DNA of 64,000 nt. Origin: Antedon mediterranea (lineage: Eukaryota > Echinodermata > Crinoidea > Comatulida > Antedonidae). The notes below the pieces were generated by a model. That model saw only the letters and a list, made by a program, of their open reading frames with translations. It did not search any database and was not told the DNA's origin. The stretch is taken from contig NC_092671.1 of assembly GCF_964355755.1 (NCBI RefSeq), forward strand, positions 6,273,001-6,337,000, given 5' to 3'. Below, in pieces: positions 11,132 to 63,777 of this stretch (position 1 is its first letter; the number at the start of each line of letters is the position of its first letter). The translations under genes and the position numbers were made by a program.

Positions 11132-11149
11132 TCTTTGAGTGCTCACTGG

Positions 11150-11249
11150 CTTAACCCAGGGACCCATGGCTTAACCCAGGGACCCATGGCTTAACCCAGG
11201 GACCCATGGCTTAACCCAGGGACCCATGGCTTAACCCAGGGACCCATGG
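11150..11249 (+). repeat. Minisatellite, 20-bp unit, about five near-identical copies
   Basis: The unit CTTAACCCAGGGACCCATGG repeats without visible change, implying recent expansion. It directly follows the 126-bp duplication. Confidence 0.95.
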
Positions 11250-11667
11250 CTTACAGTGGGGCCTGAACAGACCTAAGAGCAAAAAACATTAGGCATTAAA
11301 ATATTTCGAGAAATGTTAAAAACACCTGAAGCCTCCAGCTTTGAAGGACCACTTACAGTAGGGTTCCTAAACCAGCGTTACGCCATTGAGTACTACTTCA
11401 ATTGTATTATATTTGTCTTACTTATCGGAAGATTTGATTTGTAGCCACCTGTATAAAATTAGATAATTAATGCTAATTTTATAGCTGTATGGTTTGAATT
11501 ATAGGGAATTATAGGAACTCATACGATCCACAATTGTCAAATTGCACAACCAAGTTACATACTGTACTTACAGTATAAAAGAAATTCTGTTTCTGAGACA
11601 GCTGACTTACATAATTTTTAGAACACAAAAATCTATAAAAACTGTAACTATGTACAATATATGTATG

Positions 11668-39406: not shown

Positions 39407-40235
39407 GGGCCTGTTTCTGCTGCAACTGCTCAAAATACGGTATAAAAATACGGTATAAAATACAGTATTTTTTATACCGTATTTTTTAGTACCCCGTTTC
39501 TGCTAACAATACTTCTTGGGTGGTCGTGTTAAATTTCATCTTTTTTACCCAAATTGCCATTCATTTATTTGATCGATAATTAAAAGTCGCAATAAAGGAA
39601 GTTTTACGTCTCACTTTCAACAGCCTAGCCCTAGTGATAGAGATGTTGTGAGAGCACAGAAAACATCGTAATGGGGACAATTAATTCGTTCCCTCCCCGA
39701 GTTATTGTATTTTGCAATGTTGTACTGCTTTCGCAGGCTCTTCAGCTTTGAGTTTACTTGCTTTGGAGACAAGTCTATTCCATACTCCTGCTTTATTTTT
39801 TTAGAAATGTCTTTATAAATGTGGTTGTCCCTTTTATTACCTTTTAGTTGGCCAGACATTTTAGCTTCCCCACACACATTTATTTAGTAAAACTGTGACG
39901 TCTTCGCTCCACATTTTCGCCGAATATATCTATACATGTGTGTAAAGCAGCTGACAGCGACAGAAAATAAAAACACGAATGGTGACCTTTTGTCATGTAA
40001 AAAAAAAATACGGTATTTTTTATTGGCAGCAGAAACGGGTACAAAAAATACGGTATAAATTTGTAAATACCGTATTTTATCCACAAATTTTGTAATTATC
40101 CACAAAATACGGTATACAAAATACGGTATATTTTTTATGAGCGCAGTTTCTGCTGCCAAAAATATACCGTATATATACGGTATTAAAAAAATACTGTATA
40201 ATATACGGTATTTAGTTGGCAGCAGAAACAGGGCC
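39407..40235. mobile_element. PIF/Harbinger-like non-autonomous element
   Basis: Left end GGGCCTGTTTCTGCTGC and right end GCAGCAGAAACAGGGCC are inverse with a one-base offset, flanked by TAA on both sides (39404-39406 and 40236-40238). TWA target duplications and GG-starting termini are typical of PIF/Harbinger. Both subterminal zones are packed with ATACGGTAT/ATACCGTAT words, likely binding sites for the element's own protein. The interior keeps a Myb/SANT-like remnant on the minus strand. Confidence 0.75.
39617..39877 (-). pseudogene. Harbinger Myb/SANT-like DNA-binding protein, truncated
   Basis: The frame reads KRDNHIYKDISKKIKQEY, then LSPKQVNSKLKSLRKQYNIA and SGRERINCPHYDVF. This is the second half of a Myb/SANT-like (MADF-type) trihelix. 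The first helix with the usual Trp is missing, so it is a fragment. Harbinger elements encode a nuclease plus a Myb-like helper; only the latter survives here. Confidence 0.6.
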
Positions 40236-50668: not shown

Positions 50669-50925
50669 ATGCTCTGTTTTACACTCTGCTTTACACTCTG
50701 CTTTACACTCTGCTTTACTCTCTGCTTATACTCTCTGCTTTACTCTCTGCTTTACTCTCTGCTTTACTCTCTGCTTTACTCTCTGCTTTACTCTCTGCTT
50801 TACACTCTGCTTTACACTCTGCTTTACACTCTGCTTTACACTCTGCTTTACTCTCTGCTTTACTCTCTGCTTTACTCTCTGCTTTACTCTCTGCTTTACT
50901 CTCTGCTGTACTCTTAGCTTTACTC
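50669..50925 (+). repeat. 12-bp minisatellite (CTTTACTCTCTG variants), about 20 copies
   Basis: Units of CTCTGCTTTA plus CT or CA. The two variants, TTTACTCTCTG and TTTACACTCTG, occur in blocks. Because 12 is a multiple of three, all frames stay open and give repeats such as FTLC and KAES; I see no sign that any is translated. Confidence 0.9.
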
Positions 50926-51373
50926 TTAGTCTTCTTTTTAAACTGAAGTGTTATTGTATACAACAATTGTTCCGCTTTGTTTTAGTAGGCATGTTAAGGA
51001 GCATATTTTAGGCAAATCCTTCAAATTGTGATAACATTTTGAAACTTTGCACAGTTATTCATTAGGGTGTCAAAAATATGAAATGGAAGGGTTGCACAAA
51101 ATTTGGTCAGGGGAAAGCCGCCATTTTGGATTTCAAAATGGCTGACCTCAAATTTTCACTTGTCAGGTATATCTCTGCTAAAGAGGCACCTAGAGTTCTG
51201 ATTTTACCTGCAAAATATATGGTAGTGGGGTCACCAAACATATTGGTATAATTAACATTTGATTGCATGGCGGCCATGTTGGATTTCAAAATGGCGGACT
51301 TCAAATTTTCACTTTTCAGGTATATCTCTGCTAAAAAGGCACCTAGAATTGTGATTTTAGGTGCAAATTATAA

Positions 51374-52185
51374 TTATGGTAATGGGGTCACCAAACATAT
51401 TGGTATAACTAACATTTTAATTTCATGGCGGCCATGTTGGATTTCAAAATCATAAATCACTCTTTCTGCATTTACAGCGTCCAAGATCACAGTCGGTGTG
51501 TCACAGCGATTTGTGACATCTGAAAGTTCCGGCAATGAACTCCAAACTGGACTAAATTTGTTGCCGTCCTTCCTCCATCCCCAGTTTGCTGGGTCCTGTT
51601 CAACCCTGAATGCATCTAGACAGTTGTACCACTTTCTGGCTTGTAGAAAAGACCGTTTCACATGTTCTCTTAATGCCGCAGATGTTGGGGGGATATTTTC
51701 AATAGTCTGTAGTAAAAAAATATCGTCTTGCATCATTTACCTTCTTTCTACATAGTTACAACAAACTGTTCTAGATAATCTGTGTCACTAACATCCCCTA
51801 CAGACAATGACATCGTCTCAAATTCCTTTCCTTGAACAGATGAAGTTGTATCACAACTGCTAAAGGAATGAAAGAACAAGTAAGCGGCTGATGCTTGTGA
51901 TCCAAGAGAAGTAATCTTGTGTATTGAGATATACTTCAAGTGCTTCCCCACTCCAAACTCGATCCAAAGCTCGTGGATGCCAGGTATTCTGTGGAAAGTT
52001 GACAATGAAATAACAACAACATCACTGTCTACAGTCTTGACAAGAATGCGCGGACAAATTTTAGCGGCATGTTTAACATGAACAAACATACGTTCATCTG
52101 CCTCTTCTATGTTACTTGGCATCAGCGGTTTTATATTTACAGACTGGTTTGTTACAGCTCTGTCTCTCAGAGACCCTACAAACAT
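51374..52185 (-). pseudogene. Relic transposon protein, left copy
   Basis: The minus frame reads EEADERMFVHVKHA, RILVKTVDSDVVVISLSTFH, IEFGVGKHLKYISIHKI, LGSQASAAYLFFHSFSSCDT, then a deletion and frame change into TIENIPPTSAALREHVKR, ARKWYNCLDAFRVEQDPANW and PVWSSLPELSDVT. The family is widespread in animal transposons. The D-x-D stretch and the 'CDTTS' after a helix recall FEN1/XPG-type nuclease signatures; that assignment is inference. Confidence 0.6.
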
Positions 52186-52419
52186 TCCGTGATTTGTGTC
52201 AATGTTCTCTACTACTTCAGTTACAATTAATGAAACAACTCTGATTTGTTGTCATCATATCTCGAATATGTGGTCCAATTGTTGGGCATGCTCCCACTGG
52301 CTTTGACGCCCCTCATTACACCAGAGCCGCGGTTTGAACGCGTACTAGACTTTAAACCGTCGTTAAAGTATCTATCGAAAACCAAATCTGGTCACGTCAC
52401 TGATCGACTGTACACAATG

Positions 52420-53100
52420 ATGTTGTTGTCAGCTTTCCACAGAATACCTGGCATCCACGAGCTTCGGATCGAGTTTGGAGTGGGGAAGCACTTGAAATAC
52501 ATCCCAATACACAAGATTGCTTCTTCTCTTGGATCACAAGCATCAGCCGCTTACTTGTTCTTTCATACCATTAGCGGTTGTGATAGAACTTCATCTGTTT
52601 AAGGAAAAGGTAAAGCTACATTTAACGAGACTTTGAAAAAGATGCCATGTATGACTCCAGTTTTTGAGAGGATGTCATTGTCTGTAGGGCATGTTAGTGA
52701 AACAGACACAGATTATCTAGAACAGTTTGTTGTAACTATGTCTACTGCAGAACATTTAATGATGCAAGACGATATCTTTTTACAACAAGAGAAAGACTAT
52801 TGAAAATATCCCCCAACATCTGCGGCATTAAGAGAACATGTGAAACGGAAGCCAAGAAGTGGTACGACTGTCTAGATGCATTCAGGGTTGAACTAACAGG
52901 ACCCAGCGAACTGGGGATAGAGGAAGGACGGCAACAAATTTAGTCCAGCTTGGAGTTCATTGCCGGAACTTTCAGATGTCACAAAGGTTTTAATTCGCTG
53001 TGGACACACCGACTGTGATCTTGAATGCTGTAAATGCAGAAAGAGTGATTTACGATGCACAGAGCTGTGTGGTTGCCAGGAAAAATGTGACCTACAATAA
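52420..53100 (+). pseudogene. Relic transposon protein, right copy
   Basis: The plus frame repeats the left copy from FHRIPGIHELRIEFGVGKHL onward. It retains GKGKATFNETLKKMPCMTPV, which the left copy has lost, and continues through several stops to a Cys-rich end (CGHTDCDLECCKCRKSDL, then CTELCGCQEKC) like the CxC tails of this family. The two copies converge on the element centre, so it is an inverted duplication rather than one gene. Confidence 0.6.
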
Positions 53101-53187
53101 GTGTCCGTGTTAAATGCATGTAATTATGAACATAAACAAATAGTGTAAAGCCAGTACGGGTTGAGCTACATTCAAAATGGCCGCCAT

Positions 53188-53995
53188 GCAATCAAAGACG
53201 TTATACCAATATGTTTGTTGACCCAGGGAAGAGTTAAATTAAATTAATTAAATTGTAATTTAACTCTTCCCTGGTTGACCTCAATACTATATTATACTTT
53301 GTACCTAAAATTATAACTGTAGGTACCGTACTGAAACATTTTGAGTTCGCCATTTTGAAATTCAAAATGGCCGCCATGCAATAAAAATGTCAGTTAAATA
53401 CCAATATGTTTGGTTACCCATTACCATATAATTGGCACCTAAAATCAGGACTCTGTGTACCTTTTTAGCAGAGATACCTGAAAAGTGAAAATTTGAAGTC
53501 CGCCATTTTGAAATCCAAAATGGCCGTCATGCAATCAAAATGTTAGTTATACCAATATGTTTGGTGACCCCATTAACATATAATTTGCACCTAAAATCAG
53601 AACTCTAGGTGCCTTTTTAGCAGAGATATGCCTGAAAAATGAAAATTTGAAATCCGCCATTTTGAAATCCAACATGGCCGCCATGGAATCAAAATGTTAG
53701 TTATACCAGTATGTTTGGTGACCCCACTACCATATAATTTGCACCTAAAATCAGAACTCTAGGTGCCTCTTTAGCAGAGATATACCTAAAAAGTGAAAAT
53801 TTGAAGTCCGCCATTTTGAAATCTAAAATGGCCGCCATGCAATTAAAATGTTAGTTATACCAATATCTTTGGTGACCCCATTACCATATAATTTGCACCT
53901 AAATTCAGAACTCTAGGTGCCTATTTAGCAGAGATATACCTGACAAGTGAAAATTTGAGGTCAGCCATTTTGAAATCCAAAATGGCGGCTTTCCC
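53188..53995 (+). repeat. Array of about 155-bp units in the right arm
   Basis: Each unit has CCGCCATTTTGAAATCCAAA, then ATGGCCGCCATGCAATCAAA, TATACCAATATGTTTGGTGA, TAATTTGCACCTAAAATCAG and TTTAGCAGAGATATACCTGA. Units begin near 53188, 53344, 53500, 53654, 53809 and 53964, the first and last being partial. Confidence 0.9.
53224..53273. mobile_element. 50-bp CAGGG...CCCTG micro-element with perfect 7-bp duplication
   Basis: Inverted halves CAGGGAAGAGTTAAATTA and TAATTTAACTCTTCCCTG, flanked by gttgacc on both sides (53217-53223 and 53274-53280). It lies inside one unit of the 155-bp array. Sister units read ATGTTTGGTGACC followed directly by the next bases, showing the site without the insert. 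Confidence 0.85.
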
Positions 53996-54110
53996 CTGAC
54001 CAAATTTTGTGCAACCCTTCCATTTCATATTTTTGACACCCTAATGAATAACTGTGCAAAGTTTCAGAATGTTATCACAATTTGAAGGATTGGGTCACTT
54101 AACAGGCCTA

Positions 54111-61916: not shown

Positions 61917-63139
61917 CCAATTTATAGTTTTGCATGGCTGTTTATATTTGGAAAAAATAATCAGAAAGACAATTTGCAAGCAATACTAAGACACAAATAA
62001 ATAAAATGAACAAAATGTCTTTAAATAGTTTTTTTTATTCTTCTTAAATAATTAAAATACTCTCATAAAATAATCTTCACTTCATACATTATGATGTATT
62101 ATAATTCTCAAAAAAAAATCTCAGAATTTGTAATGTATTAATTTAAATTTTCAATGAAAGAAATAAATGTTTATTTGAATTGAATTAAATTATGTTGTTT
62201 GTGTTTTTGCCTTTCTATATTATACGTTTGTATTACCACCGTACAATCGATTGTAGGTGATCATCGTGCCAAACATGATTGTCTTGAAGCTCAGGTACAG
62301 GCATGAATTTTAAATATAATATTTGGTTAATTGTACATAAATCAAATATTTGTAACAGAAATCAAGACGAAAAAACATCAATTTCCCGTAATATGGACAA
62401 ATACAAAATTTGGCAAAATTCTTACATAAAAACCAGTATAATTTTTTTTTCAGTAGTTAGGTAGTTAACCTAATGTAATAACATGTCTGGTGACTCCCTA
62501 GATGGTGAAAAAAGATGGTGGATATACAGTGGATAATTTTTTCTATAGCATGAAAATAAAAATCTGAAGTTGAATAAAAATATCAGAAATGTAATATTTA
62601 AGTTATAGTACCTATATTTAGTCATCTGATAACATTTTTACCACACCGTTTATTTTTCATAGCTTTTTAAAACGCCTCTCTATTTACAAAATTTGTGTAT
62701 AAAAGAATAGAGATTTTACTGTGCAATTTGAACTATTCCCCCCACTGATTAGAAAGTGCTTATTTTCAACAAGCTCGTGTAACACAAATAAAATCCCAAA
62801 AATTATGAAACATAGGGGAAACTATAGATCGATAATTATTGGAATGTATGATCAATAGAAATTTTTTTTCCCGCACCTGGCCTTTAAAGTAAATATAGAA
62901 AAAAATCGTAGTTGTGTAACCAAATGCCAAAAAATAACCTCTTCACTTTGATGTGACGGTTGTCGGCGTTACAGTATTTATTTAAAAAGTGATCTGACCA
63001 TTCGCCATGCTATATGTGTCTTTTCCGTTTGGTGCAGAATACAAGAAGTTATCAAAACTACTAAACAGCAGAACTTTTTGAAAACGCAAGTTGACTAACT
63101 ATTCGAAAGGCAATTGAAAAACAGAACTATTCGACATTA

Positions 63140-63413
63140 TTACAACTACTGTAGGCCTACATTATTACAACTACTGTAGGCCTACATTATTACAACTACT
63201 GTAGGCCTACATTATTACAACTACTGTAGGCCTACATTATTACAACTACTGTAGGCCTACATTATTACAACTACTGTAGGCCTACATTATTACAACTACT
63301 GTAGGCCTACATTATTACAACTACTGTAGGCCTACATTATTACAACTACTGTAGGCTTACATTATTACAACTACTGTAGGCTTACATTATTACAACTACT
63401 GTAGGCTTACATT
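63140..63413 (+). repeat. Minisatellite, 25-bp unit, about eleven copies
   Basis: The unit ATTATTACAACTACTGTAGG plus CCTAC repeats almost without change; the last copies have CTTAC instead of CCTAC. This is recent expansion spreading from the left. There are no spacers, so it is not CRISPR-like. Confidence 0.95.
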
Positions 63414-63777
63414 ATTTGAAGAATTGTTGGTATAAGATGTTGAAATAAAATGCTTTAAATTGCCTAAAACGAACCAATTAGACTGTATTTATTGTCTTTT
63501 TGATTTTTTAAAATATTTTTGTCTGAAAATACAAGCAGTATATACGTATGAAATGCCATATGTGGCAAAATATCTTTTTACTAATATTAAGTCAAAACTT
63601 CGTCTGGAACACAGACTACGAATCTGAGCATTGACATCCGGGCGCTATTCGCTAAAAAATGATGAAGAAAAAACACATGCGTGTCACGTTCCATCGAAAA
63701 CGCCTTTTCGTTTGTTGTAGAATACAAAACAATTAACAGCAGAACAGAAACAACCTTTTATTGAATATTTTCTTGAA

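Follow-up and report, generated by a model that had tools for sequence, protein, structure and literature searches.

The window analysed here is a stretch of 64,000 nt from the genome of Antedon mediterranea (contig NC_092671.1, forward-strand positions 6,273,001 to 6,337,000). It contains a repeated element at 51015–54091 (limits approximate) with 437-bp inverted arms that are 94% alike and with units of about 155 bp, which form a tandem array at 53332–53986. The unit motif CCAATATGTTTGKTGACC has 247 genomic occurrences, 115 in the forward and 132 in the reverse orientation. Comparison of three reading frames of the element with Pfam gave nothing above the cut-off, and Rfam at gathering scores gave zero matches in the window. 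Reading-frame fragments are found on both strands of the element. Elsewhere in the window, near-perfect tandem arrays with units of 20, 12 and 25 bp lie at 11147–11253, 50672–50926 and 63134–63416, respectively, and AT-rich inverted pairs around ATACCGTATT, with flanking repeats of 7–9 bp, occupy a motif-rich stretch at 39474–40129.

The repeated element is interrupted at 53217–53280 by a 50-bp palindrome (53224–53273, running CAGGGAAGAGTTAAATT...AATTTAACTCTTCCCTG), placed between two exact copies of GTTGACC on the plus strand (53217–53223 and 53274–53280). The left 18 nt of the palindrome (53224–53241, plus strand) are identical to nt 1–18 of a long element described below (L048), and the reverse complement of its right 20 nt (53254–53273, minus strand) is identical to nt 1–20 of the same element. 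We regard these arms as retained transposon ends, each a part of a 33-nt terminal inverted repeat. The 12 nt between them, AATTAATTAAAT (53242–53253, plus strand), are absent from the parent terminal repeat and represent a junction filler, putatively inserted during end joining. In 200,000 draws of random 50-bp stretches from the window, 49 had a 7-bp match at their flanks. A scan for units of up to 400 bp found no second CAGGG...CCCTG unit in the 64 kb.

The sequence-only reading had described this palindrome with its doubled GTTGACC exactly, and was right to see an insertion accompanied by a 7-bp target duplication. All seven paralogues of the innermost unit that were fetched from other places in the genome (L096–L100, L102 and L103) carry GTTGACC in a single copy and read ATGTTTGTTGACCTCAATAC without interruption and with 0 mismatches; both the insertion and the duplication of 7 bp can thus be regarded as secure. 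This empty site is cleaner than the sequence-only reading supposed: the other units of the window array have GGTGACC or a variant of it in the same place.

The 20 nt that begin such palindromes are also the start of a 2593-bp element (L048, C2:12496547-12499139) bounded by a perfect 33-bp terminal repeat, CAGGGAAGAGTTAAATTACATGG.... A DNA search with this sequence added two copies at 99% and four long copies at approximately 90–97%. The long copies span 2.4–3.2 kb. Six were read at both ends, and all six are flanked by exact duplications (GGAATAC, GTGAGAG, GTAAAAG, GTTTAAT, CTTTTAAG and GTTCGAAC), four of 7 bp and two of 8 bp; the seventh (L076/L077) is left out of this count, as its left end could not be located. 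No transposase family was matched by either of two L048 reading frames. There is also a degenerate copy of 1.7 kb in which both ends are present (L117). Two other arrangements of parent-type ends were observed: at L082 (173 and 1120), two ends in the same orientation, whose left flanks are identical, are separated by 947 bp in an LTR-like manner, and at L049 (166–592), two inward-facing ends lie 427 bp apart between mirror-image flanks, as if within a larger inverted repeat.

Small units resembling the one in the window were searched for in the whole genome (354 Mb, 18 contigs). There are 193 units composed of perfect 12-nt ends separated by 8–36 nt. At 49 sites of this kind that were fetched, the duplication of 7 or 8 bp is exact in 35, has one mismatch in 10 and is lacking in four. 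Sites, sampled mainly from contigs C1 to C3, were retained if they had a duplication of 7–8 bp within one mismatch and a unit of 18–74 bp. The four sites just mentioned failed this filter, as did 13 of the 33 sites selected by a single end, which show no bracketed unit; several of these 13 resemble mutated copies and some do not. The 69 passing rows, from which L001–L003 were excluded as repeats of L004–L006, were combined by flank similarity into 44 flank groups. The duplication is 7 bp long in 36 groups and 8 bp long in eight, the two copies are exact in 38, and the consensus is GTWWWAC. In the six groups with more than one member (13, 5, 5, 4, 2 and 2), the members have common flanks, which indicates that their small units were multiplied along with the host sequence. 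A dense, mostly same-strand run of the 20-nt end is located on C3 at about 19.6–25.1 Mb; the sites read within it (L130–L134) have an identical 41-bp unit and identical flanks.

The length of parental sequence retained at each end has a clear upper limit. Genome-wide, ends of the CAGGGAAGAG family number 693 at a length of at least 17 nt, 391 at 19 nt, 307 at 20 nt, 140 at 21 nt and 13 at 23 nt. In 43 of the 44 flank groups, no more than 20–21 nt of the 33-bp terminal repeat are retained per end. The sole exception (L114 95–166) retains approximately 28 nt on one side; this 72-bp unit resembles a scar plus a second end. The single-end sites had been selected for at least 19 nt, and the 26 groups free of that bias (the perfect-12-nt-end sites and the window, for which at most 12 nt per end was demanded) were tested separately. 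In these groups the longer end measures 17 nt in one, 18 nt in three, 19 nt in four, 20 nt in 12 and 21 nt in six. The chance that 18 of 26 groups reach 20 nt or more is 2e-4 if the true tail is 19 nt and 7e-26 if it is 17 nt. Position 21 is a T in six of the 28 groups with 20–21 nt, against 9.5 expected from base composition. Units such as L005, which consists of 20 nt, AT and 20 nt, have no room for more parental sequence, so that the limit is independent of the parent copy chosen for comparison. The shorter end is frequently trimmed: it has at most 16 nt in 21 of the 44 groups and at most 12 nt in 12 of them, with the duplication still present. In the extreme case of L124, as read by eye, 20 nt are kept on one side and zero on the other, where the 8-bp duplication TATTAATC follows directly.

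The junctions between the two ends were classified in 35 groups; the nine omitted (L056, L062, L065, L066, L094, L095, L108, L113 and L114) mostly have an end that looks mutated. There are 20 junctions with inserts of 1–19 nt, six blunt junctions and nine with overlaps of 1–2 nt. Six fillers of at least 8 nt copy the terminal repeat above the level of shuffled sequences (summed P 0.0005). This result is carried by L027 (10 nt) and L032 (8 nt), each of which is significant singly; templating is not significant singly for L022, L030, L038 or the window filler, for which the shuffle P is 0.45. None of the 20 distinct units whose insert is at least 8 nt long, which come from 13 flank groups, was shared between flank groups. 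Recurrence at two flank groups each is seen for five simple units, all with a 1-nt insert or an overlap (L008/L033, L010/L020–L021, L060/L078, L063/L123 and L105/L115). A 30-bp form joined at an internal AATT, in which the plus- and minus-strand matches overlap by 4, is present at least eight times on C1.

Taken together, the trimmed ends, the unshared complex interiors and the limit near 20 nt argue that the small units are remnants of excision followed by end joining and not a transposing palindrome. For the same reasons, the proposal of the sequence-only reading that a small unit had itself inserted finds no support. The 50-bp palindrome very likely represents the excision footprint, or scar, of a larger P-superfamily DNA transposon that has departed, and not a mini-element that inserted by itself. 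Read from the scars alone, the apparent tail of the CAGGGAAGAG family is about 20 nt, not 17. From the junctions we infer an end-joining repair pathway.

The events would begin with a step that is directly visible in the genome, the insertion of an element with 33-bp terminal repeats at a GTWWWAC-like site, with duplication of 7 (sometimes 8) bp. A P-type transposase would then excise the element by widely staggered cuts, so that about 20 nt of either transposon end stay behind single-stranded on the host DNA. End joining of these tails could involve trimming, overlaps of 0–2 nt (and probably also of 4 nt) and short, partly templated inserts. The expected product, consisting of the duplication, about 20 nt, a filler, about 20 nt reversed and the second duplication, would mimic a very small palindromic element; its counterpart in the window would be 18 nt, a 12-nt filler and 20 nt. 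Such a scar is probably immobile by itself and copied only with the host repeat.

Other origins of the palindrome have to be weighed against an excision footprint. It might be a very small MITE, a non-autonomous transposon moved in trans that produced the 7-bp duplication on its own insertion. Palindromic ends, target duplications and the 193 units with perfect 12-nt ends are all what such an element would show, and the five simple units that are identical at different flanks could be cited in its favour, although we read them as recurrent simple joins; the 30-bp AATT form might conceivably be able to move. A MITE is, however, hard to reconcile with the extent of trimming at one end in groups that keep their duplication, and with the confinement of each of the 20 complex units to one flank group. 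Moreover, the units lack the sequence internal to the terminal repeat in which the Drosophila P transposase has its binding sites (PMC7776569). We therefore judge this origin improbable.

We give even less weight to aborted gap repair, in which copying of the gap after excision is interrupted and the resulting internal deletion leaves only the ends by chance. PMC4168063 mentions the process among the origins of defective P-superfamily copies, and both the unit with about 28 nt at one end (L114) and the degenerate 1.7-kb copy (L117) agree with it. Its endpoints, however, should fall anywhere in the element, in contrast to the drop observed from 307 ends of at least 20 nt to 13 of at least 23 nt. 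Finally, nothing was found in favour of the idea that the 155-bp unit contained the palindrome from early on and that most copies lost it. The sequence-only reading had named partial palindromes at the same place in other units as the sign of such an origin; no trace of one exists in the seven fetched paralogues, each with its one GTTGACC, and units of the same kind occur in many unrelated sequences (44 flank groups). This origin can be practically discounted.

An autonomous partner was sought among the P-type transposase genes of the genome, in which PF21787 has 35 matches; none with CAGGGAAGAG ends was found. No CAGGGAAGAG ends bracket the P-transposase loci at L044–L047, L088–L095, L116 or L141–L146. 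Two P-type families have definable ends, which differ from CAGGGAAGAG; at the other P-transposase loci read, ends were not found. One candidate was examined and rejected: at L116 on C5, a degenerate L048-like end lies 2.7 kb from a THAP/P transposase. The link was dropped because an alignment with five other copies sets the limits of the transposase element at L116 2289 to about 5708, with ends CAAAGATCTTATA. This THAP-domain P-type family is represented at L116 2289–5708, at L141–L144 and on C9, and L116 and L142 have the same flanks in opposite orientation. Two P-transposase fragments (L094 and L095) have scar-like units at a distance of a few kb, possibly by chance. With its duplications, target preference, repeat length and scars as the bases, and the gene not among them, we infer that the CAGGGAAGAG family would be of P type.

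A parallel is offered in the same genome by a family whose transposase gene is present. Its type element, L088, is 5551 bp long, with a 32-bp terminal repeat, ends CTGAGACAAC... and a 7-bp duplication, and encodes, in a 794-aa open frame, the RNase H and GTP-binding domains of a P-type transposase (PF21787 and PF21788). There are three long copies (L088 600–6150 on C1, C3:37947660-37953233 and C8:6206158-6211719), all flanked by exact 7-bp duplications, with long terminal repeats, and possibly recently active. All 30 genome-wide matches to ends of at least 15 nt were read. Eight of them extend to at least 32 nt; the remaining 22 end at 15 nt (three), 16 nt (11) or 17 nt (eight), and none stops at 18–31 nt. 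Exact 7-bp duplications bracket five distinct sites (L137, L140, L153, L158 and L161), L138 and L139 being copies of the L137 site. One of the five palindromic units of this family, L136, has no duplication, and 11 of the 16 single-end rows show neither a bracketed unit nor an end of the full-length type. The same kind of scar, in the 17-nt register of Drosophila, is thus left by a transposon with a P-type transposase gene of its own.

Short palindromes with target duplications are easily misfiled as tiny transposons, and one class of them is here better read as scars. The excess of small units (193) over the long copies found (seven) suggests that the family was mostly lost by excision; many of the small units were copied with a host repeat, so that excision events are fewer than small units. 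On balance, we favour the view that this genome holds a natural archive of several hundred P-superfamily scars, which would record staggers of 17 nt (L088) and of about 20 nt (CAGGGAAGAG) and a polymerase-theta-like germline repair with templated fillers. If this is true, the stagger and target preference of an unseen transposase, and the habits of germline break repair, could be read from an assembly alone, and the literature searched would hold no earlier hint of variable stagger length within the P superfamily. P excision footprints as such are already known from the laboratory; what is new is the large natural set and the apparent 20-nt register. The literature searched, which covered few subscription papers, contains no prior report of a genome-wide natural set or of a register other than 17 nt.

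Two characters of the CAGGG family agree with those of the P superfamily. Its duplications are 7–8 bp long with a palindromic GT...AC preference, and its terminal repeat, perfect over 33 bp in L048, is close in length to the approximately 31 bp of the P element. As in P-type footprints, both duplications are kept together with tails of fixed length (about 20 nt here and 17 nt in the L088 family), and overlaps, blunt joins or inserts, some of them templated, characterize the 35 of 44 groups that were classed. Elements of the hAT superfamily produce 8-bp target duplications, which does not correspond to the 7 bp seen in 36 of the 44 groups. The small units share with MITEs their short length, palindromic structure, lack of genes and target duplications at the flanks. 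A MITE is, however, one sequence found in many unrelated places with both ends intact, whereas here one end is often truncated, complex interiors are unshared and no sign that the small form moves was seen. The L088 family is similar in its 32-bp terminal repeat, 7-bp duplications and duplication-bracketed palindromic scars, but differs in its end sequence and 17-nt limit and is far less abundant (30 ends of at least 15 nt).

Among systems described elsewhere, Galileo, a P-superfamily element of Drosophila, makes 7- or 8-bp duplications with the target GTATTAC or GTANTAC (PMC4168063), which resembles GTWWWAC; its terminal repeats are long, whereas those found here are 33 bp, start with CAGGG and belong to elements whose transposase was not found. 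The terminal inverted repeat of zebrafish Pdre2 is 13 bp (PMC10983969). In Drosophila, the P transposase cuts 17 nt inside a 31-bp terminal repeat (PMC7776569). The closest likeness in the form of the junctions is with those left by laboratory excision of P{wa}: in Table 1 of PMC2895639, they consist of the target site duplication, a 17-nt tail, a filler, a second 17-nt tail and the second duplication. Up to 17 nt are kept per side, with an overlap, a blunt join or an AT-rich insert, and loss of polymerase theta alters P junctions in laboratory flies (PMC2895639). The scars described here have the same duplication-bracketed tails, join classes, asymmetric trimming and templated inserts. They differ from the P{wa} junctions of that source in having tails of about 20 nt and duplications mostly of 7 bp, instead of 17 nt and 8 bp; and whereas the Drosophila junctions were recovered in the laboratory, those of A. 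mediterranea are a natural record kept in a genome assembly.
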